A DNA stretch of 37,359 bases from a virus. Below the pieces are notes generated by a model. The model did no database searches, was not told the origin of the DNA, and saw only the letters and a program-made list of their open reading frames with translations. The stretch lies in IMG/VR virus record IMGVR_UViG_3300033144_002427, positions 1 to 37,359 of that record; one strand, 5' to 3'. Shown here piece by piece: positions 27,656 to 34,661 of this stretch; position 1 is the first letter of the stretch, and every line of letters starts with the position of its first letter. Position numbers and translations under genes: made by a program.

Positions 27656-27731
27656 TGGCACCCCGAGCAGGACTCGAACCCGCGACCGATGGAGTAGAAA
27701 TCCATTGCTCTTCCAACTGAGCTACCGAGGC
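27656..27731 (-). tRNA. tRNA-Arg(TCT)
   Basis: Full cloverleaf with encoded CCA. The anticodon loop TTTCTAC gives TCT, reading AGA. The acceptor stem pairs along all seven positions with several wobbles, and the T arm is GCGGG/CCTGC. The 5' end begins one base after the TAA of the 107-residue gene. Confidence 0.95.
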
Positions 27732-28055
27732 TTAATAAATGTCCCACCACACGCCTTTATAGCGTGCACGGTAATGTGAATCATCATAGTCAAAGTCTAC
27801 GCCAAGTACTATATGTGGACGAAGTTGGTCGCGTGCGACCCGGCGTCCTATGCGATTGACTCGATTAAAATATTCATGCGTACCTACAGTATAGTTCCTA
27901 GATTCAGTCCCATGTAATAGATAGTCTCTTTCCAGACGTTCTATGTATCTAGGTGCCCATGTGTAATCGGGGTAGTTATCTATCCATTCACGTATTTCTT
28001 TTTTAGTGCTGCCCCAATAGTGTTTATAGGGTACACCTCTTTTTGTTCTTGCCAT
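27732..28055 (-). CDS. Basic aromatic-rich small protein, unknown function
   Basis: A 107-residue protein rich in Arg, Tyr and Trp, ending in WWDIY. It has no known motif. GGAG lies eight bases before the ATG. It is inserted exactly between tRNA-Arg(TCG) and tRNA-Arg(TCT), with its stop codon touching the tRNA 5' end. Confidence 0.7.
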   Translation of the reverse strand: MARTKRGVPYKHYWGSTKKEIREWIDNYPDYTWAPRYIERLERDYLLHGTESRNYTVGTHEYFNRVNRIGRRVARDQLRPHIVLGVDFDYDDSHYRARYKGVWWDIY

Positions 28056-28103
28056 GTTAATCTCCAGTAAGTTTATTTACCATCGCATAACATTCTCCTG
28101 TAG

Positions 28104-28180
28104 TGGCCTCGCCGAAGGGACTCGAACCCCCATATACCTGGTTCGAAGCCAGGGCCGTATCCAGTTCCGGTCACGGCGAG
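28104..28180 (-). tRNA. tRNA-Arg(TCG)
   Basis: Full cloverleaf with CCA. The acceptor stem CTCGCCG/CGGCGAG is perfect, and the anticodon arm CCTGG-CTTCGAA-CCAGG gives TCG, reading CGA and possibly CGN. Confidence 0.96.
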
Positions 28181-28185
28181 ATTGT

Positions 28186-28261
28186 TGGTGGAACCCCACG
28201 GAATTGAACCGTATCCCTTAGTGCTTCAAACTAATGTGCAGACCACTTACACCAGAGTTCC
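28186..28261 (-). tRNA. tRNA-Phe(GAA)
   Basis: Full cloverleaf with CCA. The anticodon loop is TTGAAGC. Only five bases separate its CCA end from tRNA-Arg(TCG), so they are one precursor. Confidence 0.95.
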
Positions 28262-28267
28262 ATATCG

Positions 28268-28363
28268 CTAAGATAGCGTAATTGGTATAACGAAAGCTGA
28301 TATAGCTAACATTATTAAAATTGTGTATAGTGTATATCCCACAACCTTATTTATCTTGTTCAT
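28268..28363 (-). CDS. Possible 31-residue membrane peptide
   Basis: A short frame starts inside the end of the preceding small gene and stops six bases before tRNA-Phe. It encodes MNKINK followed by about 24 hydrophobic residues (VVGYTLYTILIMLAISAFVI and on), a single transmembrane helix. A purine-rich GAGAG site lies about 12 bases upstream. It accounts for an otherwise empty gap. The pattern is convincing for a membrane microprotein, but the frame is short. Confidence 0.5.
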   Translation of the reverse strand: MNKINKVVGYTLYTILIMLAISAFVIPITLS

Positions 28364-28493
28364 CTTCTTTTATCTCTCCAAAATCGTATGCGTGATCGCC
28401 TTCCATCATAAAGTACCAGCGAGCGTCTTTTTCATTTTCTGCTTCGAACACTTTACGTTCTCCGCCTATATATTCTATCCAATATTTCTTCAT
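28347..28493 (-). CDS. Small acidic protein, unknown function
   Basis: A 48-residue protein starting at ATG 28493 after AGGGAATAGG; a longer frame through tRNA-Ile is unlikely. It has a YWIEYIGGERKVFEAENEKD start and an acidic tail. Its leader (GGGAATAGGA) is the same as that of the HD-domain gene, hinting at a shared insertion style for small genes after tRNAs. Confidence 0.65.
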   Translation of the reverse strand: MKKYWIEYIGGERKVFEAENEKDARWYFMMEGDHAYDFGEIKEDEQDK

Positions 28494-28507
28494 TCCTATT
28501 CCCTGTT

Positions 28508-28585
28508 TGGTACTGCGAGTTGGACTCGAACCAACGACCGACGGCATATAAGACCGCAGCTCTAACCTGACTGAGCTACCGCAGC
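28508..28585 (-). tRNA. tRNA-Ile(TAT)
   Basis: Cloverleaf with CCA. The anticodon loop CTTATAT gives TAT, reading the AUA codon that many bacteria serve with a lysidine-modified CAT tRNA instead. The acceptor stem has terminal wobble pairs. Confidence 0.93.
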
Positions 28586-28586
28586 A

Positions 28587-29072
28587 TTACTTATATTTCT
28601 CTATAATCTTTGCAAGTTCAATAGGTACTCCACCTAGTACGTCTACACAGACATTTATATAACGTCTGTCTTGAATACTTTTTTGGTGTACGTGTCCGTG
28701 AATATTATACCTATCTCTTAGCTCATTTGGATGAATAGGACAGTGACTTAACCAATATCCCTTATACTTACTGAACCAAGTAATCTTATAAAAGTATTTT
28801 TGATACTCCTCTAACTTAAATGTATCGTGATTACCTGGTAGTAATATTTTATTACCATTCATCTGTCCGATTAACTTAAGTTTATCTAAATCAAAACATA
28901 CATCCCCCAGTACATATACTATATCTTTTTTATTTGTAACAACAGAGTTCCATTGCTCTACTAGCCAACGGTCATGTTCATCTACAGTCTCACCATAGCG
29001 ATGACCTTGGGCGAACTTAAGAATATTCTTATGCCCTATATGTAGATCGCTTATAAAAAATATTTTACTCAT
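28587..29072 (-). CDS. Calcineurin-like metallophosphoesterase
   Basis: About 161 residues from ATG 29072, just after tRNA-Leu. Metal-binding motifs are in order: ISDLHIGHKN, LGDVCFD, LLPGNHD, LSHCPIHP and NIHGHVH. The size and motif set fit small phage phosphoesterases of the YfcE/MJ0936-like class, which act on phosphodiesters or nucleotides. The start with weak AACAGAG was chosen because the frame upstream is tRNA sequence. Confidence 0.9.
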   Translation of the reverse strand: MSKIFFISDLHIGHKNILKFAQGHRYGETVDEHDRWLVEQWNSVVTNKKDIVYVLGDVCFDLDKLKLIGQMNGNKILLPGNHDTFKLEEYQKYFYKITWFSKYKGYWLSHCPIHPNELRDRYNIHGHVHQKSIQDRRYINVCVDVLGGVPIELAKIIEKYK

Positions 29073-29088
29073 CTCTGTTTCATTTGTT

Positions 29089-29165
29089 TGGTAGGGATGA
29101 ACGGATTCGAACCGATACTGAACTGGGCTTAAACCAGATGCCTCTGCCAATTGGGCCACATCCCC
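29089..29165 (-). tRNA. tRNA-Leu(TAA) with short variable loop
   Basis: CCA is encoded, the acceptor GGGGATG/CATCCCT is paired, and the anticodon loop TTTAAGC gives TAA for UUA. The variable loop is only about five bases (TCAGT), whereas bacterial tRNA-Leu normally has a long variable arm. The D arm (GCCCAATTGGCAGAGGC) closely resembles that of tRNA-Leu(TAG) at 34585-34661. Confidence 0.88.
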
Positions 29166-29169
29166 ATAG

Positions 29170-29385
29170 TTATTTTATAATACCCAAAGCTGTTCTAATT
29201 TCATGTTGAGCAGCCTTGTGTCCTGCTCTGTAAGCATCATTGCACATTTTGGCAACCATATCTGCTTTCTTCTCACTGGAGAAAATGCGATAATGGCAGA
29301 TAGTGCCCGCATAAAACCCAAAACCTACCCCTGGCCCCTCTACTGCATATTCTAGCTTAGAATTTATAATACTTCGATATTTCAT
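29170..29385 (-). CDS. Small protein, unknown function
   Basis: A 71-residue protein with a glycine-rich GPGVGFGFYAGTICHYRIF segment and a helical C-terminus. No family recognised. It lies between the SleB-like gene and tRNA-Leu(TAA). Confidence 0.65.
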   Translation of the reverse strand: MKYRSIINSKLEYAVEGPGVGFGFYAGTICHYRIFSSEKKADMVAKMCNDAYRAGHKAAQHEIRTALGIIK

Positions 29386-29388
29386 TTT

Positions 29389-29763
29389 TTACTCTATATA
29401 AAATATATGTTCGCCAATCTTAGCGACCATTTGCATTTCTTTTGCCCAATATGGTTTTACATACAAGGCGTGGTAGTGCATTACTCCTTTAAGATCATTA
29501 TGTCCTGATCCCCCTAATACACCTTTAGCAACCATTTGTGCTCGTTGCCATGCTTCTTCATGTTGTGGTACATCCGACTTACCATCCCAGTACCATGAAA
29601 ATTGTTTGTGCTGATTGACTACGCCACATACTGTATCTGGGTAATCTGGGCTTACTACTCTATTCATTGTTACTTGAGCTACAGCAACTTGTCCAGCTAT
29701 ACTCTGATTTTGTGCCTCGAAATAAACATTCATAGCTAGACACATCATAACTAAATTAATCAT
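29389..29763 (-). CDS. SleB/Hydrolase_2-type cell-wall hydrolase
   Basis: About 124 residues from ATG 29763, which follows GAGGG and lies just past tRNA-Cys. Right after a short hydrophobic N-terminus is the family core AMNVYFEAQNQSIAGQVAVA, with the catalytic-type Glu, then TMNRV, CGVVNQHKQFSWYWDG and HYHALYVKPYWA. The family cleaves peptidoglycan. It is separate from the lysis genes at the left end, so it could aid virion entry, lysis or remodelling. It lacks a peptidoglycan-binding domain. Confidence 0.88.
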   Translation of the reverse strand: MINLVMMCLAMNVYFEAQNQSIAGQVAVAQVTMNRVVSPDYPDTVCGVVNQHKQFSWYWDGKSDVPQHEEAWQRAQMVAKGVLGGSGHNDLKGVMHYHALYVKPYWAKEMQMVAKIGEHIFYIE

Positions 29764-29777
29764 ATATACCCTCGTAT

Positions 29778-29853
29778 TGGAAGGACAGGTCGGATCCGAG
29801 CCGACATTCTCGGGATTTGCAATCCCGCGCATAACCATTTCTGCCACTGTCCC
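29778..29853 (-). tRNA. tRNA-Cys(GCA)
   Basis: Cloverleaf with CCA. The anticodon arm CGGGA-TTGCAAA-TCCCG gives GCA. The discriminator is U73, as expected for Cys tRNAs. Confidence 0.96.
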
Positions 29854-29862
29854 TAAATAAAT

Positions 29863-29938
29863 TGGCTGACCGAGTAGGATTCGAACCTACACTCGCAAGG
29901 ATCAAAACCTTGTGCATTACCAATTATGCTACCGGCCA
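29863..29938 (-). tRNA. tRNA-Gln(TTG)
   Basis: Cloverleaf with CCA. The anticodon arm CAAGG-TTTTGAT-CCTTG gives TTG. Its 5' part overlaps the last codons of the small gene at 29924-30112 by 15 bases. Confidence 0.95.
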
Positions 29939-30112
29939 ATTTTCATCGTATATGATTTTTATCACTTCATCATTAGAATCTCTCAACTCTATTCTTTGAG
30001 TAATGCCACCATGTACTATACAGCTATTAGCGTAAGTTTCTGCAGAATTAAGGTCTATACTATTTCTTAACCTTATCCACTCGTCTTGTCTTTTCAACCA
30101 TACACTAACCAC
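29924..30112 (-). CDS. Small protein ending inside tRNA-Gln
   Basis: A 62-residue protein from a GTG directly after the stop of the HD-domain gene, with GGGAT upstream. It contains a helix and a short beta hairpin (RIELRDSNDEVIKIIYDENW). Its stop lies within the tRNA-Gln 5' half, so processing of the tRNA would cut this mRNA. Function unknown. Confidence 0.6.
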   Translation of the reverse strand: MVSVWLKRQDEWIRLRNSIDLNSAETYANSCIVHGGITQRIELRDSNDEVIKIIYDENWPVA

Positions 30113-30577
30113 TTAAAATCCCATTTCTTCTAATACTTGGGCTTTTTCTACTAAATAAATCTTTGCAAATCCTGGATCATGTGCAACAATACTGGCCGTG
30201 TTATCGGCCAAGTCGCACCACTTGATCAACTTTGCGTCTACATGAACAGTACTGAGACGTTTAGCTTCTAAGGCTTTTCGCTTTGCTCTATTCATATGTG
30301 GATAATTTTCAGGAGTAAAATGATCTGTAAGATCATATACTAACCCTGCTACTCTTTCCCCGAAAATCTCACCAATTTCGTCAATCGTTACTGCAGTATC
30401 TTCTACAGTATCGTGAAGAAAAGCAGCAGCAATCATTTCGGCATCTTGCACCAATTTAGCTACCCCTCTAGCAACATTATAACAATGTGTGAAATACGGT
30501 TCCCCCGTATATCTACGTTTCTGATTGTAATGCGCTTCTTTAGCGATCCATTCTGCTTTTTGAATTATGTTTTTCAT
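30113..30577 (-). CDS. HD-domain alarmone hydrolase-like protein (SpoT-HD/MESH1 type)
   Basis: A 154-residue stand-alone HD phosphohydrolase. Visible motifs are KRRYTGEPYFTHCYNVA near residues 20-36, AFLHDTVEDT near 52 with the HD metal pair, and KWCDLADNTASIV near 120. This is the layout of the ppGpp-hydrolase half of RelA/SpoT and of small alarmone hydrolases, with no synthetase or TGS domain. It would lower ppGpp or a related nucleotide during infection. The start follows AGGGAATAGGA just after tRNA-Ser(TGA). Confidence 0.87.
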   Translation of the reverse strand: MKNIIQKAEWIAKEAHYNQKRRYTGEPYFTHCYNVARGVAKLVQDAEMIAAAFLHDTVEDTAVTIDEIGEIFGERVAGLVYDLTDHFTPENYPHMNRAKRKALEAKRLSTVHVDAKLIKWCDLADNTASIVAHDPGFAKIYLVEKAQVLEEMGF

Positions 30578-30590
30578 TCCTATTCCCTAT

Positions 30591-30677
30591 TGGCGGAGGA
30601 TGAAGGAGTCGAACCCTTACCTATTATGATACCCTGGTATTCAACACCAGTTGCCGGCCAACCCAGCGGCACCCTCC
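30591..30677 (-). tRNA. tRNA-Ser(TGA)
   Basis: Class II cloverleaf with CCA, a long variable arm containing TATCATAATAGGTA, and anticodon loop GTTGAAT giving TGA. Acceptor GGAGGGT/ATCCTCC with discriminator G. Confidence 0.95.
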
Positions 30678-30685
30678 AAAATTAA

Positions 30686-30734
30686 GTCCTGCGAGGTAAT
30701 TCCTCTTAACTACTCACCCCTAACGCGTCAGGAC
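30686..30734 (-). other. Small structured element between two Ser tRNAs
   Basis: GTCCTG and CAGGAC form a perfect six-pair closing stem. Inside it is a second perfect stem, GAGG/CCTC with a five-base loop. There is no CCA and no anticodon-like loop. It may be a tRNA remnant or an RNA-processing element. I see no gene in the 30678-30747 gap. Confidence 0.5.
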
Positions 30735-30747
30735 ACACACGATGCAT

Positions 30748-30834
30748 TGGTGGAAGACGTGAGACTCGAACTCACACACCTATTATGATGTACGGTTTAG
30801 CAAACCGCTGCGTTATCCTTTGCGCCAGTCTTCC
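30748..30834 (-). tRNA. tRNA-Ser(GCT)
   Basis: Class II cloverleaf with CCA. The acceptor GGAAGAC/GTCTTCC is perfect, and the anticodon loop TTGCTAA gives GCT. Its variable arm shares ATCATAATAGGT with tRNA-Ser(TGA), so the two arose by duplication. The discriminator reads A rather than the usual G. Confidence 0.93.
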
Positions 30835-30838
30835 ATTT

Positions 30839-30910
30839 ATTAAAAAGTATTCCTCTGGGAACTACCCTTAAGAAAGCCTCGTTACCTTTCAGCAAAGAAT
30901 ACTTTTTAAT
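30839..30910 (-). repeat. 14-base perfect inverted repeat with folded loop
   Basis: ATTAAAAAGTATTC (30839-30852) and its exact complement (30897-30910) enclose 44 bases that themselves can form two hairpins (GGG/CCC and GAAAG/CTTTC), giving a three-way junction. On the minus strand the right arm ends in TTTTT, so it may act as a second terminator after the tmRNA, or be an independent structured RNA. Confidence 0.7.
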
Positions 30911-30938
30911 AAAAGGTGGGTCTTTTTAAGTGAGACCC
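30908..30938 (-). terminator. Terminator after the tmRNA coding piece
   Basis: Minus-strand stem GGGTCT/AGACCC with a nine-base loop is followed by ACCTTTTATT. It is placed about 60 bases after the tag stop codon and probably marks the 3' end of the tmRNA precursor. It overlaps the neighbouring inverted repeat by three bases. Confidence 0.75.
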
Positions 30939-30939
30939 T

Positions 30940-31305
30940 TAACACTTGAATATTTCTGTTGACAGGCTATCCCATACCCCGCATAAGCTAAGCTGTTTAG
31001 GCCGCCATTGCAAGTTCGACATAGGCATCCTCAGATGCTCCCATTATAGGGAAGTCGATTATGTTATCATTTCCGATTACATTGTTAATACTTACGGTAT
31101 CAAACGAGTTGTCCATTTAGCTTTCGTATGTCAATCTATTCCAAGTCAGCCCCATCAGATACACTCTAATCCCCCTCCCCTGCAAGGGCGGCTTCCATGT
31201 TGCAGCACAGTGAGCGATTGCCCATGAAAGTGTACGTGGTGGAGCTGAAGGGATTCGAACCCTTGTCTTGTCCATCTATTTCTAAATTTCATACAACTAT
31301 ATGTT
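30940..31305 (-). ncRNA. ssrA: Circularly permuted two-piece tmRNA
   Basis: tmRNA rescues stalled ribosomes by acting as tRNA-Ala and then as a short mRNA. Here the order is permuted. First comes the acceptor piece (about 31305-31237): one P2 strand, T arm AAGGG-TTCGAAT-CCCTT and CAGCTCC-A-CCA. Then an 83-base intervening segment, then the coding piece starting GGGGCTG at 31153. GGGGCTG pairs with CAGCTCC along seven positions, with G3-U70, the alanine identity pair. P2 pairs 31120-31115 with 31287-31282 and 31112-31107 with 31298-31293. The tag frame ends ELAMAA-TAA at 30997; the resume codon is GCA at 31038 or GGA at 31041, giving ASEDAYVELAMAA with or without a leading G. Flanks of the intervening segment (31227-31234 with 31160-31167) also pair. 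The 3' limit and the outer 5' end are approximate. Confidence 0.9.
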
Positions 31306-31498
31306 TAGCACAATGTTTGCTTATAGCAACTGTATTGCCATAAATACGTAGTAGTACATTATTCTTTGTACTACCTATACATTTTATCTTTGCACCTTCA
31401 ATAAGACCTAATGTCATAATTCGGAGAATACAATTACAGGATGTATCTACTTTCTTTATTGTTACTGTACTTCCTACTTCTAATTCATTTAGTCTCAT
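31289..31498 (-). CDS. FeoA-like SH3-fold protein
   Basis: A 69-residue protein matching the FeoA domain along its length: MRLNELEVGSTVTIKKV, then RIMTLGLIEGAKIKCIG, then LLRIYGNTVAISKHCAKHI. FeoA is a small cytosolic partner of the ferrous-iron transporter FeoB, and the same fold forms the C-terminal domain of DtxR-type regulators; no feoB is in the window. AAAGG lies about seven bases before the ATG. The gene is wedged between rnpB and ssrA: its ribosome-binding site overlaps the 3' strand of the rnpB P1 helix, and its last codons form a P2 strand of the tmRNA. Translation and RNA maturation should therefore conflict. Confidence 0.8.
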   Translation of the reverse strand: MRLNELEVGSTVTIKKVDTSCNCILRIMTLGLIEGAKIKCIGSTKNNVLLRIYGNTVAISKHCAKHIVV

Positions 31499-31500
31499 TT

Positions 31501-31746
31501 ATTACCTTTATAGCCGAGATTCTGTATTAATACACATTCATCTATTGGCCACTACCCGTCGTCATTAGGGCTTCGGTTCCCTTCGAACTGTTTGTGTTGC
31601 AGGCTATATACGCAGTAATAGTGAGGAAGGTGGGACTTGAACCCACTTCAGCTTTCGCTTACCAAGTATGTTTCAACTCTGCATTTCCTCTTCTGCGCCT
31701 AAGCGCCTGTCCCGAGCTTCCTCTCCGTAGAGCGTGTAATTGTAAT
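31501..31746 (-). ncRNA. rnpB: RNase P RNA, compact phage-encoded form
   Basis: This is the catalytic RNA that cuts 5' leaders from pre-tRNAs. The 5' conserved block GAGGAAGCTCGGGA (31723-31710) and the 3' block AGATGAATG...ACAGAATCTCGGCT (31543-31512) match the universal RNase P core. P4 forms between 31718-31710 and 31519-31512 with the single bulged U at the expected place. P1 (31746-31742 with 31505-31501) and P2 (31738-31734 with 31535-31531) close the molecule. A GGTAAGCGAAAG block followed by the hairpin GTGGG-TTCAAGT-CCCAC fits the P10-P12 region. At about 246 bases it is much shorter than the E. coli RNA (377), so several peripheral helices are missing. I see no rnpA; the host protein would be needed. 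Confidence 0.9.
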
Positions 31747-31747
31747 T

Positions 31748-31819
31748 TGGCAAACGAGGTCGGAGTTGAACCGACTCGACAAGGTTTTGGAGACCTGCCC
31801 GCTCCCCAGCTGCCTCGAA
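31748..31819 (-). tRNA. tRNA-Trp(CCA), degenerate
   Basis: CCA is encoded, the T arm GTCGG-TTCAACT-CCGAC is perfect, and the anticodon loop CTCCAAA is typical for Trp. The acceptor stem has two T-T mismatches and the D region is about three bases short. Its CCA end lies one base from the first pairing base of rnpB. Confidence 0.75.
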
Positions 31820-31821
31820 TG

Positions 31822-31897
31822 TGGTAGATCAGATTGGATTCGAACCAACAAATACTCGCGTATCAGACGAGCCTCTTAACCGCTTGAGTACTGATCT
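31822..31897 (-). tRNA. tRNA-Ile(GAT)
   Basis: Cloverleaf with CCA. Acceptor AGATCAG/CTGATCT is perfect, and the anticodon arm CTCGT-CTGATAC-GCGAG gives GAT. Two bases separate its CCA from the 5' end of tRNA-Trp. Confidence 0.94.
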
Positions 31898-31905
31898 TTA
31901 ATTTT

Positions 31906-31975
31906 TGGAGACTCGGGGCGGAATCGAACCGCCCACCACAAGGATTGAAAGCCTCTAGTCCACCGTTGCCGAATC
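31906..31975 (-). tRNA. Glu-like tRNA(TTC), D arm reduced
   Basis: The acceptor GATTCGG/CCGAGTC and the T arm GGCGG-TTCGATT-CCGCC are good and CCA is encoded. The loop CTTTCAA would give TTC. Only about 12 bases lie between acceptor and anticodon stem, so there is no normal D arm, and the anticodon stem is weak. It may be a decayed or unconventional tRNA. A complete tRNA-Glu(TTC) lies at 33386-33460. Confidence 0.55.
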
Positions 31976-32278
31976 TATCCATTTTGTATATTCTGCCATA
32001 CTCTTATTAGAGTATAGCTTCACCATCGCAGTTACTCTCGCCCAGACACTTACTGGGATATCTTGCGGGTATCTTTCGATTTTCGCAAGCGCTGTGCCCT
32101 TCGAAAATGCATAGGCAATATGAGTAGCACGACACTCAGGACGTACACCATAAATACGATGGAGATAAAGCCACTCTCTAGTGTCTCCATTGTTTCGTTT
32201 CTCTTCTGTTCTAATAATCCTAGACTCTTGGGCTAGGTGTTTTGCTTTTACTTTTAAAGCTAATTTCCGATTTATCAT
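31955..32278 (-). CDS. Unknown basic protein ending inside the Glu-like tRNA
   Basis: A 107-residue basic helical protein with no recognised motif. Its ATG at 32278 lies only four bases past the -10 box of the promoter at 32282-32310, upstream of where transcription should begin, so either another promoter is used or translation starts further in. The stop codon lies 21 bases inside the Glu-like tRNA gene. Confidence 0.5.
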   Translation of the reverse strand: MINRKLALKVKAKHLAQESRIIRTEEKRNNGDTREWLYLHRIYGVRPECRATHIAYAFSKGTALAKIERYPQDIPVSVWARVTAMVKLYSNKSMAEYTKWIDSATVD

Positions 32279-32281
32279 TAT

Positions 32282-32310
32282 ATTATACCTTATTTTAATT
32301 TGAATTTCAA
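32282..32310 (-). promoter_or_regulatory. Promoter for the rnpB-feoA-ssrA segment
   Basis: TTGAAA (32310-32305), a 17-base spacer and TATAAT (32287-32282) on the minus strand. Downstream in order are the 107-residue gene, three tRNAs, rnpB, the FeoA-like gene and the tmRNA, then a terminator at 30908-30938. These define a candidate transcription unit. Confidence 0.85.
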
Positions 32311-32372
32311 GTTTATTTTAAATAAGGTATTTAAGGCGGTGCTCTAACTTCAGTTCATTTTCCTTCCTAGAT

Positions 32373-32447
32373 TGGTGGTGATGGTCGGAGTTGAACCGAC
32401 GACTTACAAGATATGAGCTTGCTGCTTAACCGTTCAGCTTCATCACC
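32373..32447 (-). tRNA. tRNA-Met(CAT), elongator-type
   Basis: Acceptor GGTGATG/CATCACC is perfect with CCA, and the anticodon loop CTCATAT gives CAT. The first pair is G-C, so it is not an initiator. An Ile tRNA with lysidine at CAT cannot be excluded, but tRNA-Ile(TAT) is already present. Confidence 0.93.
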
Positions 32448-32448
32448 T

Positions 32449-32811
32449 TTAACATGTTTTTGCTATTATATTAGAAAAAGTACTTTGTCTGTTTTCATCA
32501 TCTGTTACAGTCATATAAAACCAATGTCTACCTTCAGTTAGTTTTGGTATTTCCCATTGAACTAAAGCATTATTAGTTATATCAACTACTCTTTCTAATG
32601 TAGTCTCTTCTACACTAGGTTCGCTATTGATGAAGATAGTATATTTAAAAATATCTTCTATCAATAACTCTGATCCATCTGTTCTTTCTGCTGGAGTTTC
32701 CCATATTACTAACGCATCGCACCCTATAGTTGGGTCAGGGGGATTAGGAGAATTCCCACCCCCACAACCTACTAAAATAAAAAATGCTGCGCCTAAGTAC
32801 TTATTGTACAC
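32449..32811 (-). CDS. Lipoprotein with Fn3-like fold
   Basis: About 120 residues from a GTG start. A signal peptide ends in the lipobox FILVGC, giving lipidated Cys16, followed by a GGG/Pro linker and an all-beta domain with ALVIWETPAERTDGSELLIED and HWFYMTVTDDENRQSTFSN, the pattern of a fibronectin type III module. The gene overlaps its upstream partner by 11 bases. Surface lipoproteins in phages can block superinfection (T5 Llp is one), but the role here is inferred. Confidence 0.75.
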   Translation of the reverse strand: MYNKYLGAAFFILVGCGGGNSPNPPDPTIGCDALVIWETPAERTDGSELLIEDIFKYTIFINSEPSVEETTLERVVDITNNALVQWEIPKLTEGRHWFYMTVTDDENRQSTFSNIIAKTC

Positions 32812-33208
32812 TTAACAGTGTAGGCGGAAGTGGTACTCTGCCTAGATCTGCTGCGCTGTATGTTCTATTTGCTTCATTACTATATTGAGATTCTGATGCA
32901 TAATCAGTAGAAGTAGCTGTAGCTACAAAATAGTAAGTTCCAGGTACTCCCTGTACACAAGTGCCTACATCTTGTACTGCTGCTTCTACCGCAGAACCTA
33001 CATCATATAAAAAGGGATAAGGTCCACCCTGTGTATCTCCACAATATAATCTATAACTAAGAATATCTGTAGCAGGTATTACGTTACCATCTTCATACTG
33101 AGTAGGTGCTGTCCAACTAAAATCTGAAACAGGGGCAGCAGATACTCCTAAACTAATTACTATGCTTACAGCTAATCCTGCTATAAACATTCCTATAACT
33201 TTCTTCAT
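32801..33208 (-). CDS. Secreted Fn3-like protein
   Basis: A 135-residue protein with a classical signal peptide (basic MKK, hydrophobic 4-22, ASA-type cleavage near VSAAP) and one Fn3-like domain: FSWTAPTQYEDGNVIPATD, then YRLYCGDTQGGPY, then GTYYFVATATSTDYASESQ. Two cysteines could form a disulfide outside the cytoplasm. It pairs with the downstream lipoprotein, which has the same domain style. Confidence 0.75.
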   Translation of the reverse strand: MKKVIGMFIAGLAVSIVISLGVSAAPVSDFSWTAPTQYEDGNVIPATDILSYRLYCGDTQGGPYPFLYDVGSAVEAAVQDVGTCVQGVPGTYYFVATATSTDYASESQYSNEANRTYSAADLGRVPLPPTLLSVQ

Positions 33209-33222
33209 TTATCGCTCCTAAT

Positions 33223-33299
33223 TGGTCTCAACGGTTCGATTCGAACGAACGACCTCTCGCTTCCAAGGCGAGAACTCTACCAGACTGAGCTACGCTGAG
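33223..33299 (-). tRNA. tRNA-Pro(TGG)
   Basis: Cloverleaf with CCA. The anticodon arm CTCGC-CTTGGAA-GCGAG gives TGG, and the T arm GTTCG/CGAAC is perfect. Confidence 0.95.
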
Positions 33300-33303
33300 A
33301 TTC

Positions 33304-33381
33304 TGGGGTATAAGACCGGACTCGAACCGGCATTTTCCTGAATCACAATCAGGGGACTTATCCAATTAGTCTACTTATACC
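33304..33381 (-). tRNA. tRNA-His(GTG)
   Basis: The anticodon arm CCTGA-TTGTGAT-TCAGG gives GTG. An extra G at position -1 faces C73, the hallmark of His tRNAs. CCA is encoded. Confidence 0.96.
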
Positions 33382-33385
33382 ATTG

Positions 33386-33460
33386 TGGTACACTGACGGG
33401 GAATCGAACCCCGATTGCCGGGTTGAAAACCCGGTGTCCTAACCATTAGACGACCGGTGC
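33386..33460 (-). tRNA. tRNA-Glu(TTC)
   Basis: The anticodon arm CCGGG-TTTTCAA-CCCGG gives TTC. T arm perfect and CCA encoded. One C-A mismatch lies in the acceptor stem. Confidence 0.93.
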
Positions 33461-33462
33461 AT

Positions 33463-33539
33463 TGGTAGGAGATGACGGAATCGAACCGCCGACCCTTGCC
33501 TTGTAAAAGCAACGCTCTACGCAACTGAGCTAATCTCCC
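33463..33539 (-). tRNA. tRNA-Val(TAC)
   Basis: Acceptor GGGAGAT/ATCTCCT with CCA. The anticodon loop TTTACAA gives TAC. Two bases separate it from tRNA-Glu. Confidence 0.95.
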
Positions 33540-33543
33540 AATT

Positions 33544-33618
33544 TGGCGACCTCGAACGGAGTCGAACCGTCACTTTACCGCTAGACAGGCGGTTGCACTA
33601 CCGTTATGCTACGAGGCC
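33544..33618 (-). tRNA. tRNA-Asp(GTC)
   Basis: Acceptor GGCCTCG/CGAGGTC with discriminator G and CCA. The anticodon loop CTGTCTA gives GTC. The stop of the hydrolase gene overlaps its 5' end by 10 bases. Confidence 0.95.
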
Positions 33619-34157
33619 AATATTTTATCTATAATTAGATAAAGTTTATTTGCTGTTTTTAAATCTTTAGATACTCTATGTCCACTATCTCTTACTATAG
33701 TCTTTGTAATATTATCTTTAGTAGGTATCATAGTTAAATGTTTCAATTCTATCTTTTCATTTCCACTTATAAAATGATATTGTGTTGTATCATTAAACTT
33801 TAAGTGTTTTACTTTCCAATTTTTTATTTCTTTAGCATACTGTATATATCTTTTATCCCAAGGTACTAGCGGAGGATATATAGAATATTGTGTTGCAAAA
33901 GCAATAACTTTACTTACTGGATAATCCATAGCAAACATAGTAGCATTAAATGCCCCCATACTATTTCCTATAGTAACTATCTCATGTGTAGGATCTAATC
34001 GTTCTATAATCTTTTTACTATTTAAAGTATTATACCAACTTCTACGTGTATCTTTTGCAAAAATTACATTATAACCTTTAGTAAGATTATAGAATTCTTT
34101 TACCTCTACACTTCCTGATCCATGTTTTATACCAGTAAAACTTATTATTGTTTTCAT
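33609..34157 (-). CDS. Small alpha/beta-hydrolase-like esterase
   Basis: A 182-residue protein. IGNSMGAFNATMFA near residues 63-76 is the nucleophile elbow (Gly-x-Ser-x-Gly-like, with Ser in GNSMGA), and the catalytic His would be in RDSGHRVSK near 160. The N-terminal strand TIISFTGIKHG provides the oxyanion-hole region. It may cleave an ester or thioester; the substrate is unknown. The 3' end enters tRNA-Asp. Confidence 0.75.
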   Translation of the reverse strand: MKTIISFTGIKHGSGSVEVKEFYNLTKGYNVIFAKDTRRSWYNTLNSKKIIERLDPTHEIVTIGNSMGAFNATMFAMDYPVSKVIAFATQYSIYPPLVPWDKRYIQYAKEIKNWKVKHLKFNDTTQYHFISGNEKIELKHLTMIPTKDNITKTIVRDSGHRVSKDLKTANKLYLIIDKILAS

Positions 34158-34161
34158 AAAT

Positions 34162-34221
34162 TTGTGAGCGACGCTTTTTCAGGAGTGCGCCCTCAATTCA
34201 ACTCCAATTGTTCACCAACGA
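34162..34221 (-). other. Structured spacer between hydrolase gene and tRNA-Asn
   Basis: On the minus strand GGTGA and TCAC close a region containing GGAGT/ACTCC and the small palindrome AGCGTCGCT. There is no CCA, T arm or reading frame. It resembles the 30686-30734 element in being a short folded block next to a tRNA. Function unknown. Confidence 0.35.
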
Positions 34222-34224
34222 ATT

Positions 34225-34308
34225 TGGCTCCGGGAAAAGGGGTCGAACCTTTGCTCTTGCGAGACCTCGGATTAACAGTCCGGTACATTACCACTCTGCC
34301 ATCCCGGA
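34225..34308 (-). tRNA. tRNA-Asn(GTT) with long variable arm
   Basis: Acceptor TCCGGGA/TCCCGGA, discriminator G, CCA, and the Asn-like anticodon stem-loop GGACTGTTAATCC. Between anticodon and T arms lies a 14-base variable arm containing a CTC-GCAA-GAG hairpin; bacterial Asn tRNAs have a short loop there. Confidence 0.88.
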
Positions 34309-34470
34309 TTAATTATTTGAACGTTCTGCTATTTTATCATCATTTAAACGTATAATTTCAGCTTCCATAGCTTCCATTCTTTCAACTGCACGTTCTACTA
34401 GTGTAGTTGGATATCCGTCCTTCTTGAGACGAATTGCAAATTCCCTTAATTCTTTTGTAAACTGACTCAT
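34309..34470 (-). CDS. Small charged helical protein
   Basis: About 53 residues from ATG 34470, which follows AAGGAAG; the longer frame would enter tRNA-Tyr. It is almost all helix with alternating acidic and basic residues. The stop codon is directly followed by tRNA-Asn. Function unknown. Confidence 0.65.
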   Translation of the reverse strand: MSQFTKELREFAIRLKKDGYPTTLVERAVERMEAMEAEIIRLNDDKIAERSNN

Positions 34471-34485
34471 TATACTTCCTTTGTT

Positions 34486-34578
34486 TGGTGGATGCGGATG
34501 GAATCGAACCATCACCCCGTCCAGCGGATTACGGATTTACAGTCCGCAGCGACTTAAGCCAATATTCGCCTCGCATCC
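34486..34578 (-). tRNA. tRNA-Tyr(GTA)
   Basis: Class II cloverleaf with long variable arm, perfect acceptor GGATGCG/CGCATCC, anticodon loop CTGTAAA and CCA. The D arm is longer than usual. Confidence 0.95.
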
Positions 34579-34584
34579 TATATT

Positions 34585-34661
34585 TGGTAGCCCTAGTCGG
34601 ATTCGAACCGACACTTTACGGAATCTAAACCCGCTCCCTCTGCCAATTGGGGTATAGGGCC
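34585..34661 (-). tRNA. tRNA-Leu(TAG) with short variable loop
   Basis: Acceptor GGCCCTA/TAGGGCT with CCA, and the anticodon loop TTTAGAT gives TAG for CUA. The variable loop is only five bases (AAAGT), unlike normal bacterial tRNA-Leu. The D arm resembles tRNA-Leu(TAA) at 29089-29165. The 5' G is shared with the stop codon of the gene before it. Confidence 0.88.

Follow-up and report, generated by a model that had tools for sequence, protein, structure and literature searches.

The DNA analyzed here, referred to as the window, is a 37,359-base contig, a fragment, from a T5-like phage. Its minus strand carries a permuted tmRNA gene, in the order acceptor piece, intervening segment (IVS), coding piece. 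The gene matches the Rfam model RF04321 (tmRNA_permuted) at 93.4 bits (E 5e-17, 31298-30997; cut-off 47) and RF01849 (alpha_tmRNA) at 79.6 bits (E 3e-20, 31352-30945; cut-off 50), and scores below the cut-off, at 44.8 bits, with RF01850 (beta_tmRNA). Only one of 14 named control genomes, Caulobacter, rose above the RF04321 cut-off, and the standard tmRNA model RF00023 produced no match above its cut-off in 16 records. Based on the RF04321 controls and on the covarying pairs in relatives described below, the match in the window exceeds chance. A permuted two-piece phage tmRNA had been proposed at this locus in a sequence-only reading, and both the model matches and the anatomy of the gene bear this out. 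The check that it proposed with the Rfam alpha-tmRNA models gave the RF01849 match, and the ends it stated, 31153 and a CCA at 31237, agree with the coordinates from sequence, to which we add the strand. ARAGORN, also proposed there as a check, made no call on this gene at default settings; a lowered threshold gave eight calls across the window, mostly chance.

The remaining elements of that reading, namely G3-U70, CCA, P2 half-helices across the two pieces and a frame ending ELAMAA-stop, are all found in the gene (Table 1). The acceptor stem joins GGGGCUG (31153-31147) to CAGCUCC (31247-31241) with all seven pairs formed and the G-U at pair 3, and the CCA is encoded at 31239-31237. Within the 3' part of the coding piece, CCUGUCAACAGAA at 30966-30954 is similar to the alpha consensus. 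Folded alone, the coding piece is not clearly better than shuffles (z -0.95), and 13% of other genes' coding halves pair with the window's acceptor P2 half at least as well as its own partner does. A terminator scan gave no call beyond the 3' end of the coding piece; inspection by eye and folding show a hairpin at 30938-30918 that has a weak U run.

Table 1. Features of the permuted tmRNA gene and its surroundings in the window.
Feature	Position	Strand	Basis or remark
tRNA array (19 ARAGORN-called tRNAs, one strand) enclosing the tmRNA	27656..34661	-	ARAGORN
FeoA-domain ORF, 69 aa, upstream of the tmRNA	31289..31498	-	Pfam PF04023, 47.3 bits, cut-off 23
Acceptor piece: P2 5' halves, T arm, acceptor 3' strand, CCA	31237..31298 (31298 is the RF04321 match edge)	-	RF04321 and RF01849 matches
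P2a 5' half AGUUG, partner 31111-31107	31294..31298	-	Model match; identical letters in G001
P2b 5' half UUUAG, partner CUAAA 31120-31116	31282..31286	-	Model match
P2c and P2d 5' halves (AUG, CAA) plus GAC; 3' halves within 31136-31125	31265..31276	-	Model match; P2d covarying in the viral set
T arm AAGGG UUCGAAU CCCUU	31248..31264	-	Model match
Acceptor 3' strand CAGCUCC, then A and CCA	31237..31247	-	Model match
Intervening segment (IVS), 83 nt, 7-bp closing stem 31235-31229 / 31165-31159	31154..31236	-
Coding piece; begins with acceptor 5' strand GGGGCUG, 3' end approximate and set by the alpha model	30945..31153	-	RF01849 match
Tag frame GNDNIIDFPIMGASEDAYVELAMAA-stop, 25 codons, ends ELAMAA	30997..31074	-	Resume codon GGA by model alignment
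Hairpin GCAUC UGAG GAUGC within the tag frame	31025..31038	-	Fold; G001 forms a different hairpin there

Two details of the gene are unusual. Its D-arm-like motif, GGAAUAGAU, occurs in one of 122 genes compared, UUCGA or a close form being usual, and its resume codon is GGA, compared with GCA in the closest relative, G001. On these two grounds the gene could be drifting. Its tag is also long, since the tags that ARAGORN assigns in 113 genes among the matches listed are mostly 10-14 aa (106 of 113); of all 113, 75 end in ALAA and three in AMAA.

The contig is classed as T5-like on its T5-type replication and regulatory genes. Its polymerase is 41% identical to those of phages of Yersinia, Klebsiella and Salmonella, which we take to be T5-like themselves, and its D5-like regulator is 46.5% identical to that of Pectobacterium phage DU_PP_V; an NAD-dependent ligase, a DnaB-like helicase and a primase are also encoded. 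No SmpB gene was found in this contig or in G001, both of them fragments. The stop codon of the FeoA-domain ORF (31291-31289) falls within the tmRNA acceptor piece, whereas in G001 the FeoA gene stops earlier, free of the tmRNA, with another small ORF in between. We considered this overlap as the cause of P2a conservation and rejected it: the G001 copy of these letters falls outside FeoA, behind the stop of the next small ORF. Adjoining the tmRNA is an ORF with an HD_4 domain (30577-30113, minus strand; 63.2 bits, cut-off 27.2), a domain that we assume to be of the RelA/SpoT hydrolase kind, making the product a possible ppGpp hydrolase. Two tRNA-like stretches on the minus strand, 31622-31693 and 31751-31821, score 25.7 and 24.1 bits, below the Rfam cut-offs, and are uncalled by ARAGORN; by eye, the latter has a CCA anticodon loop (perhaps tRNA-Trp).

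G001 (IMGVR_UViG_3300033142_000702; 55,984 bases) encodes a polymerase 72-73% identical to that of the window. Its own permuted tmRNA, at 36668-36381, scores 119.4 bits with RF04321, is called permuted by ARAGORN with the 25-aa tag ANDNIIAFPIVGNDFGIEAELAMAA, and sits in the same tRNA array with conserved neighbours. Among 21 window ORFs tested, 14 match the G001 stretch (two of these 14 hit one place), FeoA at 69.6% identity. Between the two genes, both sides of a pair have changed with pairing kept at one of seven positions in the acceptor stem, three of five in the T stem, three of three in P2c and two of three in P2d, nine pairs together, and at four of the seven pairs of the IVS closing stem. 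All five P2a pairs are unchanged, and three of the five P2b pairs are broken in G001. The two tags are of equal length and similar at both ends, with the ELAMAA end and an NDN motif near the start kept in both phages; the middle differs, and each forms its own hairpin there. G001 also departs from the window in having the usual AUUCGA elbow and a 68-nt IVS.

A pattern scan of IMG/VR retrieved at least 120 stretches, a set that may include prophage or misbinned bacterial DNA. In the acceptor stem the pattern fixed pairs 1-4 and 7 and one side of pair 6, and in the T stem it fixed pairs 4-5. ARAGORN called 113 of 120 permuted among the matches listed. Pairing was compared in 104 distinct viral genes, including those of the window and G001. 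Among these listed genes, acceptor pair 5, which links one piece to the other, is paired in 98 of the 104 (shuffle mean 49.6, best 63), T pairs 1-3 in all 104, and the three P2d pairs in 99/104, 96/100 and 95/100, exceeding every shuffle. On this alignment P2b mostly fails to pair among the listed matches, and the P2c columns, with 11 to 33 of about 104 paired, appeared to be out of register and were left out. Taken whole, the P2 halves among the matches listed prefer their own partner to a foreign one by a mean of 2.1 kcal/mol, own-partner pairing falling in the best tenth for only 27 of 104 genes. The IVS ends of the same matches pair at a mean of -12.9 kcal/mol with their own partner versus -6.6 across genes, and fall in the best 5% for 64 of 103 genes among those listed; the window itself ranks 0.29 among crosses. 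Covariation of the IVS closing stem in most of the 103 viral genes among the matches listed offers a testable guide to precursor cutting.

The gene recurs among relatives selected by polymerase. One of the first 15 (G001) is above the RF04321 cut-off, as are ten of 80 further contigs, the best 80 of 549 by polymerase alignment (ten of 50 and none of 30); one contig, G004, belongs to both sets. A further contig, G018 (locus L051; polymerase 47%), also carries a permuted tmRNA. Absence from the other polymerase-selected records means little, because most are short fragments; G007 and G011, each about 108 kb long, have no RF04321 match above the cut-off. Judged by the polymerase alone, all of these carriers would be T5-like. 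Acceptor stems were parsed in ten of the 13 genes (L237, L238 and L239 were left out), nine of them distinct; in these nine, G3-U70 is invariably present, and acceptor pairs 4, 5 and 6 switch type with pairing kept. T5-like phages join the groups with two-piece tmRNA, in 13 contigs: the window, G001, G018 and ten more. One carrier gene, L239 (1501-1733), judged by eye from the sequence at its start, seemingly lacks an encoded CCA and seems to have an IVS of about 8 nt. Weak or partial tmRNA_permuted matches of 25-46 bits, possibly reduced forms, occur at L240 (G024), L243 and L244 (G089) and L241 (G050).

The permuted form had also been read as a hint of host or donor lineage, an idea that the relatives do not sustain. 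The window prefers the alpha model, G001 ties (alpha 79.6, beta 79.0 bits) and G018 prefers beta (107.2 bits). Among the ten further carriers, beta_tmRNA scores best in six (L230, L231, L233, L234, L235 and L236, with identical scores for L234 and L236), alpha in three (L232, L237 and L238) and neither in L239. Because G001 ties and the carriers split in this way, the preferred model is no guide to the host. We therefore rejected it as a host indicator and, given the tie with the beta model in G001, assign no lineage despite the RF01849 match. A search for the host by exact match to a 20-letter core of the gene returned no bacterial or archaeal species in genome_contigs. One phage group mixes alpha-like and beta-like two-piece tmRNA forms.

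We consider it likely, with a probability of roughly 85%, that the locus is a working permuted tmRNA gene of a T5-like phage, placed in the phage's tRNA array, with processing and trans-translation as proposed here. The features required for trans-translation are present, and by analogy the tmRNA probably acts in this pathway together with SmpB and processing enzymes supplied by the host. The proposed steps of processing, charging, SmpB use and proteolysis are all modelled on the alphaproteobacterial two-piece system reportedly described by Keiler et al. in 2000, a study cited in PMC9004378. A single transcript would fold to bring the two acceptor strands together across the IVS; host RNase P would cut before G31153, and host 3' processing would expose the CCA at 31237, the two pieces staying joined by the acceptor stem and P2 pairing. 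Host AlaRS would then charge the tmRNA via G3-U70, and host SmpB would bring it to ribosomes that have stalled on mRNAs which are cut or lack a stop codon; there the 25-aa tag ending LAMAA would be added and the product passed to host proteases. The most likely use of the tmRNA is to rescue ribosomes in the infected cell. The likely benefit would come late in infection, with mRNA damaged and host tmRNA perhaps in short supply, by keeping ribosomes available for use.

The unusual details of the gene could instead mean that a tmRNA once functional, as in G001, is losing its SmpB-facing elbow and falling out of use. The unique D-arm-like motif, the GGA resume codon and the failure of ARAGORN to call the gene would all fit such decay, but pairing in the acceptor, T stem, P2c, P2d and IVS stem has been kept through two-sided changes relative to G001, and the 25-codon frame is intact with its ELAMAA end, so that we regard decay as unlikely. 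The same altered elbow and long tag have a more elaborate possible meaning, as marks of a phage-tuned system in which the tmRNA is coupled to FeoA by an ArfA-like feedback. For an acceptor piece to be freed with its P2a strand intact, the 5' cut must fall upstream of the FeoA stop, so the FeoA message would become stopless and itself a substrate of the tmRNA. We consider this coupling very unlikely.

It is also conceivable that tagging is irrelevant, and that the tRNA-like part acts as a decoy or inhibitor, titrating host SmpB or blocking host tmRNA. The phage copy has no SmpB gene of its own in the contig fragments, and PMC4131195 reports such a role for a molecule like the tag-less form of phage DS6A. 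Against this stands the full tag frame, with its ELAMAA end and NDN motif near the start conserved in both phages, and this role appears distinctly improbable. Since tmRNA genes are common integration sites, according to PMC11915505 and PMC9004378, the locus might derive from a host, as a gene fragment or as a copy of an attachment site in an integrating phage, or the contig might be misbinned bacterial DNA. Yet the gene is complete and embedded in a tRNA array, its contig has T5-like genes, its neighbours recur in G001, and its 20-letter core is without an exact match among the genome_contigs bacterial and archaeal species, which leaves a host origin of this kind extremely improbable.

The working tmRNA favoured here belongs to a kind already on record from phages, and the novelty implied by the sequence-only reading was overstated: PMC9004378 already reports permuted phage tmRNAs, and GenBank phages carry them with a tmRNA annotation. 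According to PMC9004378, 53 of 133 unique phage tmRNA structures are two-piece, 50 of these from marine or aquatic phages. PMC11915505 describes RF04321 together with 79 unique phage tmRNAs. A search of titles and abstracts found no published permuted tmRNA in T5-like phages, and BLAST of the window gene against phages returned only short T-arm-region matches, in 45 records, none covering 80%.

The phage-borne two-piece form of the window is shared with the marine phage Melnitz and Pelagibacter phages (PMC9004378). Melnitz, however, is a myophage whose ssrA locus bears a glutamine riboswitch, in contrast to the T5-like tRNA array and 25-aa tag of the window. Its authors infer that the tmRNA was gained from a lineage other than the host's, and suggest that it helps to maintain the hijacked machinery or tags host proteins selectively. 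The Stenotrophomonas phages Marzo and Bhz51 (Menderavirus) and BUCTxx99 resemble the window in having a permuted tmRNA amid tRNA genes, in these phages called by ARAGORN; for Marzo and Bhz51 the GenBank records annotate it as tmRNA. These Stenotrophomonas phages differ in having tags of 14 and 12 aa, and the unannotated BUCTxx99 gene (L145; OR529408.1, 98583-98908) has an IVS of just 4 nt (CUAC). Bordetella phage PHB04 (L148; MF663786.1) has an unannotated permuted tmRNA with the ARAGORN tag ANDDYIRAAA, and the crAss-like cr106_1 carries a tmRNA annotation. The alphaproteobacterial and betaproteobacterial permuted tmRNAs (RF01849, RF01850) share gene order, tRNA-like part and tag frame with the window, from which they differ in tag length, the window's being long, and in a match that is above the cut-off for alpha and under it for beta. 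The gene of the window is real and well conserved; since other phages have already yielded permuted copies, it makes a good further example rather than a new kind, and it leaves the picture of what a tmRNA is unchanged.
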